64,000 nucleotides of DNA. Source: Monosiga brevicollis MX1 (Eukaryota > Opisthokonta > Choanoflagellata > Craspedida > Salpingoecidae). Below are positions 56,294 to 60,187 of this stretch, in pieces. Under the pieces are notes generated by a model. The model was not told the origin of the DNA, made no database searches, and saw only the letters and a list, made by a program, of their open reading frames with translations. How positions within the stretch are numbered: the stretch's first letter is position 1; each line of letters begins with the position of its first letter. Where the stretch lies: assembly GCF_000002865.3 (NCBI RefSeq), contig NW_001865079.1, positions 137,015 to 201,014 of the forward strand, in the 5' to 3' direction. The position numbers were made by a program, and so were the translations under genes.

Positions 56294-57944
56294 CGATGCG
56301 ATGACGATGCCAACGGCCGGTGGAAGAGTCTGGTCATGAGTTTGCAATCCAGCCGAGTTTTTGGGGCGGGGGGTGCGGAGTTTACAGTCGTCCATTTGGC
56401 AGGTCGTGGCATGTGATCGCCGTGATGATGCTTCGAAGGACGCTTTAAATCAGCAGACGATCCACTGCGCACTGCGCGGGGCAAGAGCTTGGCCGTCGAA
56501 AAACCAAAACCGCACATGACGCGACTCTCAAAACGTTTGGGAGGGGGGGGGGTGGGGGGCTCGAGCTGGAATTCAGCCAGCAGCCGTACATCAAGTGTGA
56601 CCTGCCTCGAGCGCGGATCACCAACTCCGCCCCCACCTCCGACTTGTTCCGCCACGAGCCCTGGCTCACATACCTGTGTGCTTGGGCCACACACCTTGTG
56701 CACGGCATGCCACGTCACGTCGGAGCTTCGGAGTGTGGGCGGCCCGGGCTTGCTCATTGTCGACAAAAATAGGGTTTCCCGCCAAAACTTCTCAAGCCAG
56801 AACACGTTAGACCCCCAACACTCGCGTGCAAGACCTGTGACACGTTGGACGCAGAAGCCATTGGCGGCTGCTTTTGTCAACGTGACATGGACGCAAAACA
56901 ATAAACTGCGGACACTTCCCAATATGCTGACATTCCCCACAGGTTTCCCGGGGAGCCCCCTCTCCAGCCCCCTGCAAAGCCCCCTATAGATTCCCCCTCG
57001 CAAAGGAAGAGCCACCTAACCTGAGATGAGCAATGCGAGCTGGATGCACACGAGAAGGGGCTAGGGCACACTTGCAAAGTGGTGTTCTGCTTGGGGGCGC
57101 CACACTTTGCGGGTTTATTTCTTCAGCCGACGCACACAACCTGCGGGCCCGGTCAGCAAGGCCTCCCATCACACTTGTCAACCTTGATCAACGTACTCGT
57201 AAGCCTCCCTCATCACACTTGAAGTGATGCAAATCGCACACTTTGCGATTTTTCAAAGTGTCTTAAATTCATACTTCGTCCAGTTGACCAGAAAAGCACA
57301 AAGTGTGCTTTTTGCTGTTCTTTGCTTCGGCTCGCGCCACTTGTTGCTGCACATGGGCGCGTTGATGTCAATGTGGTGCTTGACGTCACGTGGGTTCGTG
57401 TATTCGCAAAACAGGTTGGTGCGGCGATGCTTGCTTCTTCTTCAGCCCGTTTGTCGCTGCTTTCGAGAATGCCAATCGACGCTTTGGGGTCCCTTTCCCA
57501 TGGGTTGAACGAAGAGGGCTCCTGCTTGCTTGCTGTGCGAGCGACAACACTGCGCACTGCCAACGTGAAGGGTACAGTGTCGCGCGCGCTCTGCTGGCCG
57601 GGTGCTATGTGGTGTGCGGACATGGATGATGGTCAAGGGGAAGGGGCTGGGGGTCAGAAAAAACATGCCCACGTTGGATCATCTTGCTTCGTTTGCCCTT
57701 CTTCCTGGTTCTCTCCCGGTCACACATGGCCCCGTCTGCGCTCCTCTTGCCAACCGCCAGGCTTTCTGGTGAGGTCGAGCGCCATAACGCACGACAAAGG
57801 GGGACATCACCACGAACCTTCCCTGCAAACATGGCGTCGTCTGGTCATGAATCAATCACACAAAGCGCGCTCTTTATCACACAACCCGAGGCAGAGGAGG
57901 CGAAGGGCAGCACACTGAGCAGAGAACAGAGAACAGAGCTCCTC

Positions 57945-58040
57945 CCACACACACAACACACACACACGCACAACATGACTATCATGCCACACACACACAT
58001 ACACAACACAACACACAACACACAACACAACACACACACA
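57945..58040. repeat. CA-rich low-complexity repeat
   Basis: Repeated CACACA and ACAACACA units. Confidence 0.85.
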
Positions 58041-58671
58041 CACAAAACAAAACAAAAAAACAGCGTGACACACGCGATATGGGATTCTTCAAACTTGACA
58101 AAAAAACAAAAACTTTCCCCCCACTTCCCAAGGGAAAAAAAACCGTTCGTTTTGCGATTTCCCCCGGGATGTGCGGTTTTACAGGGGCATCACCACATAG
58201 ATACGCATAAGGGGGCGATTGGCTCCAAAGCAGGTACAATTCCAATCCCACCCAACAAAAAGTGTGTGTGGTGTCCTTCAAGAACGCGCGATCTTCCAGA
58301 TCCTTCAACCGTCAACGTGCGCCCGCTTGCTCACCACTGGCAAGACCCGCTTGGTCTTCCCCCCGAAGCCACACCTCTCCCGGCTTGTGGTCACATGCGA
58401 CATCCTTCCACCACCCACCCACCGCCCTGCCCTGCCCTGCCTCTGCTGGTCTTGTGAGCGACCTCGGGCCAGTACTTGTGGCGCCGACCCGCTGGGATGG
58501 AGCATTTTTCAACTCTCAACTACCATCCTCATCAGTACCAGCCAACGAGCTGCACCCAGGCCCAACTACCCCTTTGACTTTGCTACAGCCACTGACTTTC
58601 AAGTCTCGACCGCCACCACGTCTGCGATACGCCAGACCAGTTCTTTCCCCGTGATCAATAAAGACGCCAAG

Positions 58672-60187
58672 ATGAAGACTGAGGTTGCCAGCATGATGCA
58701 GCAGGAGGAGGCGACAGCCAACTCCAAGATGCAGCTCATGGCCCAAGAGGCTCGCGACCAAGAAGAAGAGAAGTTCACCAAGTAAGACCCCACTCTGCTC
58801 CGCACCTCATCCGCCTGCTGCCTTGTAGCTGTGTTTCTCCTCCCGCAAATGGCAGCTCACCAACGTGTTCTTGTGGCTCTTTTTGTTTCATTGCACCAGG
58901 TCACTGAACGGCTCTGAGGTGTCCAGCAACAGCAGCAGCAACTCGCTCGAACTTCCCTCGGGCGTCGTCTCCAAGCCTTACGGCATGGAGGGCGTCGAGC
59001 GCTACGACAACGCCTTCCACCGCGTCAAGCTCATGCAGTCTGAGATTATTGTCGAGCGCGGCATCACCCGCCGCCTCGCCGAGGTCGGCAAGCAGATTTT
59101 GCCCGAGACCTGCCACGAGAGCAACAACTACCTTCTTACCGACTCTATGGTCGACAACCTTTACGGCGACCGTGTGCTCGAGGGCCTGCGTGAGGCTGGC
59201 CTCAAGATTTTCAAGATTGTTGTGCCCGCCGATGAGCTTGACGAGACAGGCGAGCCCTCTTGCGAGCGCCACAAGACGCTCGACGTCTTCAGCCGCTGCG
59301 TTGACCAGATCCTTGAGCGTGGCATTGACAAGAAGACCGCCATCATCTCCCTCGGCGGCGGTGTCGTGAACAACATTGCCGGTTTCATCTCAGCCACCCT
59401 CTACCGCGGTATCACGCTGGTCCACTTTTCCACCACCACCATGGGCCAGGTCGATGCCGCCATTGACTTTAAGCAGGCCGTCAACCACCACATGGGCAAG
59501 AACCTCCTGGGTGCCTACCACCCGGCCTCTCGCATCATCCTGGACCCTGAAGTCCTCGTGAGCCAGAGCAAGCGCCACATTCTCAACGGTCTGGCCGAGT
59601 CGATCAAGCACGCCTTTACCCAGTCGGAGGAGCTCATCAACTACATTGTTGACAACCGTGCCATGCTCGATGACAAGGAACAGGCCGTCGACTACCTCGA
59701 GCAGATCATTCGCCTGACCATTGCCCACAAGGTGCCCACCCTCTCGGGTGACACTGAGAACAACTACAACGAGTATTGCCCTCAGTATGGTCATTGCCCC
59801 GGCCATGCCGTTGAGTTTTTGAGCCTGCACACCGAGGGTTCCAAGGCAGCCCTGCTGCACGGCGAGGGTGTCACCATTGGCATGTGCCTTTCAGCTGAGG
59901 TGGCCCGCCTCAAGGGCATCTGCGACGATGTTTGCGTCGAGCGTCACTACGAGGTCTGCCAGGCCATGGGCCTGCCCGTCTATATCCCTGACGACATGAG
60001 CGTCGAGGCCATCCTCAACAAGATGTGCTACGACAAGCACTACGTCAAGCAGCCCACCATGGGTCTCACCACCAAGGTCGGCGAGATGTACGGCATTGAC
60101 GGCGACTATGGTCACTCGATTGACCTGGAGACGCTCAAGAAGGCCATTGCCATTAACATCAACCGTCGTGATGCCCAGTCATCATAA
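58672..60187 (+). CDS. Sugar-phosphate cyclase, 2-deoxy-scyllo-inosose synthase-like (dehydroquinate synthase superfamily)
   Basis: Two exons, 58672-58781 and 58900-60187, join in phase to 465 residues; ATG 58672 opens MKTEVASMMQQEEATANSKM. After a polar extension of about 70 residues, the cyclase fold runs to the end: SLGGGVVNNIAGFISATLYR (NAD-binding Gly loop), FKQAVNHHMGKNLLGAYHPA (K228 and K237), LAESIKHAF (E270), YGHCPGHAVEF (H335, H339), LLHGEGVTIGM (H357). E270, H335 and H357 fit the three zinc ligands of the superfamily. KQAVN and GKNL resemble 2-deoxy-scyllo-inosose synthase (SIKQAVN...GKNL) more than dehydroquinate synthase (GKTGIN) or valiolone/gadusol synthases (SKNR/LKNR). The enzyme would cyclise a sugar phosphate such as glucose 6-phosphate or sedoheptulose 7-phosphate with transient NAD use. 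The exact substrate is inferred only. Almost all catalytic sequence sits in one exon. Confidence 0.85.

Follow-up and report, generated by a model that had tools for sequence, protein, structure and literature searches.

Does the sugar phosphate cyclase gene in this stretch of DNA from the choanoflagellate Monosiga brevicollis MX1 encode an 'aminoglycoside-type' enzyme, as the original prediction made from the sequence proposed, or a cyclase of another kind? The window, by which we mean the whole 64,000-nucleotide stretch analysed, carries the gene intact at positions 58672–60187, in two exons which give one open frame of 465 amino acids once spliced. Together with two bacterial proteins, one from a Sulfurovum metagenome-assembled genome (MAG; locus L010) and one from a Chloroflexi MAG (L011), the window protein forms a clade which, judged by sequence, is new, sporadic and on the 2-deoxy-scyllo-inosose synthase (DOIS) side of the known superfamily. 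We think it fairly probable that this is an uncharacterised class of cyclase, catalytically intact and dependent on NAD+ and zinc, which branches near the stem of the DOIS lineage; this reading includes the mechanism, the domestication and the probable high expression discussed below.

The gene and its product

The gene lies at ∼195,686–197,201 on contig C16 and has the following features:

58672–58781, + strand: exon 1, predicted from splicing, frame and alignment, encoding a 37-residue Glu/Gln/Met-rich N-terminal extension which reaches past the N-termini of the bacterial relatives
58782–58899, + strand: predicted spliceosomal-type GT–AG intron of 118 bp (GTAAGA...CACCAG)
58900–60187, + strand: exon 2, encoding the entire sugar phosphate cyclase domain, as located by Pfam and NCBIfam profiles and an AlphaFold2 model
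58985–58987, + strand: alternative ATG start in exon 2, near the start of the bacterial relatives in the alignment

The ATG at 58672 is the first in-frame ATG downstream of the preceding in-frame stop, and a translation start at the exon-2 ATG (58985) is possible. Four further acceptors paired with the same donor also keep the frame open, GTRAG donors being the only ones tried. A long CA-rich simple repeat occupies 57940–58060, just upstream of the gene.

Membership of the sugar phosphate cyclase superfamily is clear from the N- and C-terminal DHQ_synthase domains (Pfam DHQ_synthase, 1.8e-30; DHQS_C, 7.1e-22), the zinc-ligand columns, the conserved lysines and the GGG motif. The AlphaFold2 model of the protein encoded by 58985–60184 has a mean pLDDT (predicted local distance difference test score) of 90.5. 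The best NCBIfam match, TIGR01357, reaches 217.9 bits, below the aroB equivalog cut-off of 305.

Phylogenetic position

Two differently sampled trees were examined, the first of 74 rows and the second of 56, the latter including 21 dehydroquinate synthase (DHQS) and 18 DOIS-branch rows; L061, a 132-residue fragment, was excluded from the trees. In both, the window protein groups with L010 and L011 in a clade supported at 100/99. A second split, also at 100/99 in both, separates this clade, the Patescibacteria-type pair described below and the branch of the DOIS BtrC from DHQS, aminoDHQS, 2-epi-5-epi-valiolone synthase (EEVS), desmethyl-4-deoxygadusol synthase (DDGS) and EboD, the single EboD row falling across the split from the clade each time. 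The window protein is outside the BtrC-holding branch itself, which contains 51 rows in the first tree and 18 in the second (each 100/99); within the 51 rows, BtrC is, we take it, the only characterised member. The sister of the window gene within the clade varies, from L010 at 63/9 to the L010 and L011 pair at 99/81 in the second tree.

Approximately unbiased (AU) tests were made for groups named after the first tree had been seen, and the first-tree results cover four of the nine groupings set up; one further grouping needed no test. Placing the clade beside the BtrC group was rejected on both trees (p = 0.0002 and 0.0003), as was a grouping with AroB (p = 0.013 and 0.0015); the window gene without L010 and L011 was likewise rejected from AroB on the second tree. 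A grouping with EEVS and DDGS was rejected on the first tree (p = 0.0003) and was borderline on the second, where EboD was added (p = 0.051). The clade with DOIS alone was not rejected (p = 0.196 and 0.264). The original prediction had the protein's KQAVN...GKNL signature nearer to DOIS than to the dehydroquinate, valiolone or gadusol synthases, which is borne out as to the side of the tree and fails as to the BtrC clade. It had also named placement either in the DOIS clade or in a new clade as supporting it; a new clade was recovered, whereas the former is what the AU tests reject.

Both trees link the clade to a pair of Patescibacteria-type cyclases, at 98/94 in the first and more weakly, at 87/59, in the second. 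This pair, from a Daviesbacteria MAG (L018:7911-8975) and a Saccharibacteria MAG (L041:3842-4924), is itself odd, with His at the column of window residue Q332, Lys at that of H339 and, at the C-terminus, neither D-N-K nor D-K in alignment.

Active-site residues

The three clade members were compared with 67 reference cyclases, comprising six DHQS, two aminoDHQS, five EEVS-type, two DDGS, one EboD and 51 BtrC-branch rows (L057 and L087, present in the first tree, were excluded from the counts). A wider set includes 15 further AroB rows, L018 and L041, a Chloroflexota cyclase (L114) and a later-added DOIS-branch row (L117). The residues concerned, all on the + strand, are:

59369–59386, + strand: NNIAGF motif (N194–F199); N195 is common to the DOIS branch, with Asp in the DHQS, EEVS and DDGS rows shown
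59465–59485, + strand: D226-F-K228-Q-A-V-N232, with the catalytic lysine K228; Q229 is common to the DOIS branch
59597–59611, + strand: zinc ligand E270, with K273 and H274, by column alignment
59729–59731, + strand: K314, Lys as in the DHQS and DOIS rows and Met in 7/7 EEVS/DDGS-type rows
59771–59773, + strand: E328, Arg in DHQS (6/6 rows and 15/15 further AroB rows)
59783–59794, + strand: Q332-Y-G-H335, the Gln found only in the clade and H335 a zinc ligand
59858–59860, + strand: H357, the third zinc ligand, by column alignment
60032–60040, + strand: D415-K416-H417, corresponding to D-N-K in DOIS rows and to D-K-K in DHQS rows; H417 is found only in the clade

In the alignment, E270, H335 and H357 fall in the zinc-ligand columns, while conserved active-site columns hold K228, K237, N238, K273, K314, R206 and D222; we assume the roles of these columns from DHQS and DOIS structures. 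The earlier description of an intact cyclase that keeps its zinc ligands and active-site lysines is thus confirmed, and the KQAVN...GKNL motif is present as described. What sets the clade apart is a fingerprint of its own. Q332 and H417 occur in 3/3 clade members, in 0/67 references and in no other row of the wider set; at the Q332 column the reference sets have, without exception, Asn in DHQS, Glu in DOIS, Asp in EEVS and Ala in DDGS. N194 is likewise present in 3/3 and 0/67, and K181 and F227, which with N194 lie outside or beside the catalytic motifs, follow the same pattern. D226 and H274 are fixed in the clade and found in 0/67 references as well. Their clade-only status is qualified by the wider set, where D226 recurs only in L018 and L041, and H274 in these two, in L114 and in 2/15 further AroB rows (L108 and L109).

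Neither by clade nor by fingerprint does the protein fall within DOIS: the Glu before YGH, the Ser at the D226 column and the D-N-K triplet are replaced by Gln, Asp and D-K-H. All 51 BtrC-branch rows have Ser, Asn, Glu and D-N-K where the window protein has Asp, His, Gln and D-K-H; the later-added L117 has Phe in place of the Asn.

Distribution and neighbourhoods of the relatives

Bacterial and archaeal genomes of 84,980 species were scanned with two patterns, built by aligning the window protein with two DOIS-like proteins, and 52 loci were returned; as the patterns are DOIS-like, members with other motifs, or intermediate groups, may be missing from these. L010 (42% identity over residues 79–427, 280 bits) and L011 (38% over 40–428, 276 bits) stand well apart from the remaining loci, at 27–36% identity and ≤158 bits, the exception being L061 with 41% over a 73-residue piece. 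The best score outside L010 and L011, taking both scored sets together, is ≤161 bits. At E ≤ 1e-70, a threshold which more diverged members would escape, the only clade members were L010 and L011 themselves, that is, 1 hit in 298 Campylobacterota, 1 in 400 Chloroflexota, 1 in 175 of the Sulfurovum MAG's family and 1 in 47 of the Chloroflexi MAG's class. A single-sequence scan of genome contigs gave no relative, nor did four viral-contig scans. Plasmid and phage tblastn searches gave relatives of ∼26–36% identity and none of ≥60% among the matches listed (40/115, 14/14, 15/115 and 8/15 records).

Each of the two bacteria also carries another cyclase with AroB residues or score. In both, a short-chain dehydrogenase (SDR) lies near the clade cyclase, ∼1.2 kb away in L010 and ∼0.9 kb away, on the opposite strand, in L011, and the two SDRs are 63% identical between the two phyla. 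We regard this pairing in unrelated genomes as the best clue to function; the SDR could reduce a keto-cyclitol. Other neighbours were read by eye, and seven were scanned with Pfam. Around the L010 cyclase are an ABC transporter ATPase and group-1 glycosyltransferases (Pfam), with further genes read by eye as sugar-nucleotide genes, and the locus is probably a surface-polysaccharide cluster. The L011 cyclase is near a DUF5672 protein (Pfam). Among the neighbours so inspected, no aminocyclitol or ebo gene was recognised.

The searches also turned up cyclases elsewhere on the DOIS side. A Streptomyces sp. NBC_00853 plasmid (L005:2872-6810) has a DOIS-branch cyclase annotated as hypothetical; it adjoins a DegT aminotransferase, a streptomycin biosynthesis protein and an inosamine-phosphate amidinotransferase, and because of these neighbours the locus is a probable uncharacterised aminocyclitol cluster. 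A fifth viral-contig scan gave one DOIS-branch sequence (L077), whose cyclase gene is carried by a contig of viral classification (IMGVR_UViG_3300050821_010487). A further cyclase, of no assigned class and likewise placed on the DOIS side (L114:680-3448; Chloroflexota G306, contig C1, ∼414–417 kb), has a UbiE-type methyltransferase on one side and a UbiA-type prenyltransferase on the other, resembling an isoprenoid-cyclitol or quinone-like cluster, and its residues place it between DOIS and the new clade.

Codon usage and origin

The cyclase gene is strongly biased in codon usage, with an effective number of codons (ENC) of 33.4 and a codon adaptation index (CAI) of 0.61 against host tubulin. 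Three tubulins, themselves the CAI reference, have ENC 28.1–29.6 and CAI 0.78, and the host AROM gene ENC 48.8 and CAI 0.24. Seven other window frames (ENC 45.3–54.0, CAI 0.14–0.31) and the longest frame from each of 13 additional host loci (ENC 41.5–61.0, CAI 0.12–0.32) are less biased, although some of these comparison frames may not be genes. A 230-residue minus-strand frame at L066 (ENC 32.3, CAI 0.57) shows that such bias is not unique to the cyclase. Optimal codons in M. brevicollis mostly end in G or C, and in Salpingoeca rosetta they correlate positively with expression (PMC6875170). As its codon usage approaches that of tubulin, we infer that the gene has been domesticated and is probably highly expressed in the choanoflagellate.

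The distribution of relatives, drawn from bacterial and archaeal, plasmid, phage and viral collections, suggests that the gene is likely to be of horizontal origin, from an unsampled donor, and was most likely acquired anciently. It would be old enough to have adopted the codon usage of its host and probably to have gained an intron there; among 405 candidate transferred genes described in M. brevicollis, >80% have introns (PMC4046809). The earlier argument for transfer from the near single-exon structure is weak, since the three host tubulins are also single frames, of 458–475 amino acids.

Host context

The host assembly searched comprises 39.5 Mb in 57 contigs. Contig C45 has a separate, GGKT-type DHQS exon, followed within ∼4 kb by 5-enolpyruvylshikimate-3-phosphate (EPSP) synthase, shikimate kinase and type I dehydroquinase, and then by the beginning of shikimate dehydrogenase, in the same order as in AROM. 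As the host has its own AROM, the window gene is dispensable for the shikimate pathway. The partner SDR has no close host match, the best (31%) reading as a generic SDR, and there is one marginal match for a DegT-type aminotransferase (23.8 bits against a family cut-off of 19.8, positions 24–145 of 360); intron-split genes could be under-detected in both searches. The host therefore shows no visible sign of the bacterial pair or of a 2-deoxystreptamine-like pathway, and Pfam scans of ten chosen long window frames gave no pathway partner. The same assembly has at least 150 cadherin-domain matches (from 150 of 288 candidates scored), with just 1/14 prokaryotic controls matched, a profile consistent with a choanoflagellate.

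Proposed function and alternatives

Sugar phosphate cyclases oxidise a hydroxyl of the bound sugar phosphate, eliminate phosphate, re-reduce the ketone and then form the ring in an intramolecular aldol reaction. The window enzyme would follow this course to a keto-cyclitol. In DHQS, an arginine helps to hold the substrate carboxylate; as E328 replaces it, 3-deoxy-D-arabino-heptulosonate 7-phosphate (DAHP) is an unlikely substrate. The pattern of E328, K314 and H339 points instead to a sugar phosphate that carries no carboxylate, our best guess being a hexose 6-phosphate as the simplest case. The partner SDR would probably reduce the ketone in both bacterial relatives, and in L010 the cyclitol would probably enter a surface glycan.

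A functional DOIS with a divergent fingerprint, converting glucose 6-phosphate to the BtrC product, would account for the DOIS-side placement in both trees and for the residues shared with BtrC (PDB 2d2x/2gru), namely N195 of the NxAG motif, Q229 of KQAVN, and K314 and H339, together with the lack of the DHQS arginine. We nevertheless judge it unlikely, given the AU rejection of the BtrC grouping and the four departures from that branch, including Gln for a Glu invariant in 51/51 rows. Unlike DOIS systems, the bacterial relatives have no recognised aminocyclitol genes beside them, and the host offers the one marginal DegT match. On the same grounds, the 'aminoglycoside-type' label is not supported for the enzyme, nor is such a pathway in the host. 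That the enzyme is a C7 cyclase, converting sedoheptulose 7-phosphate towards a sunscreen of the valiolone or gadusol kind, is also unlikely. It shares fold, cofactor and metal with ValA (4p53) and Ava_3858 (5tpr), the C7 type includes the EEVS of animals and algae and the DDGS of cnidarians (PMC4426668), and the borderline second-tree result with EboD included would allow it; yet the window protein has Lys for Met at 314, His for Pro at 339 (Pro in all seven EEVS/DDGS-type rows, His in DHQS and DOIS) and Gln for Asp or Ala at 332, is on the opposite side of the 100/99 split, and was rejected from EEVS and DDGS on the first tree.

Very improbable is a second DHQS of the shikimate pathway. Structural Z and identity are highest to DHQS and TIGR01357 is the best NCBIfam match, but at a score below the cut-off; relative to AroB and AROM (1dqs, 3zok), Glu and Gln stand at the Arg and Asn columns and DFKQ replaces GGKT, the AroB grouping was rejected, and the host has AROM. 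EboD, of the eustigmatophyte plastid and the bacterial ebo operon, is similar in being a superfamily clade of unknown product (PMC5133447) that was acquired by a eukaryote; it differs in its place across the split, in being plastid-encoded where the window gene is nuclear, and in the ebo genes not recognised near L010 and L011. Bacterial contamination of the assembly is scarcely credible: the nearest relatives found are bacterial and one strain is represented, but the gene is at the contig C16 position given above with a GT–AG intron, its codon use is like that of host tubulin, and its GC content at third codon positions is 0.80, compared with 0.19 and 0.34 for the bacterial relatives.

Significance

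The known superfamily members are DHQS, EEVS, 2-epi-valiolone synthase (EVS), aminoDHQS, DOIS and DDGS, and EEVS has been reported from animals (PMC4426668). In the portions of the literature covered, nothing joins a sugar phosphate cyclase with a choanoflagellate, the one match for choanoflagellate and dehydroquinate synthase concerning corals, and no earlier report of the window gene appears, including in the corresponding parts of PMC4046809 and PMC7971027; the supplementary list of PMC4046809 may include it. The secondary eukaryotic cyclases in these sources are C7 types (EEVS and DDGS) or EboD, from which one on the DOIS side differs.

We tentatively propose, as something quite possible, that the window gene and its two bacterial relatives are a new catalytic class, which in the choanoflagellate makes an undescribed cyclitol in bulk, possibly for surface or matrix glycans. 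As the active site matches no known member compared, the product may be unrecorded. For enzymologists the three sequences are a defined subgroup, in which Q332, H417, D226 and H274 may set substrate choice. A DOIS-side cyclase with its own fingerprint and near-tubulin codon usage, in a close relative of animals, would predict an abundant cyclitol which can be searched for directly.
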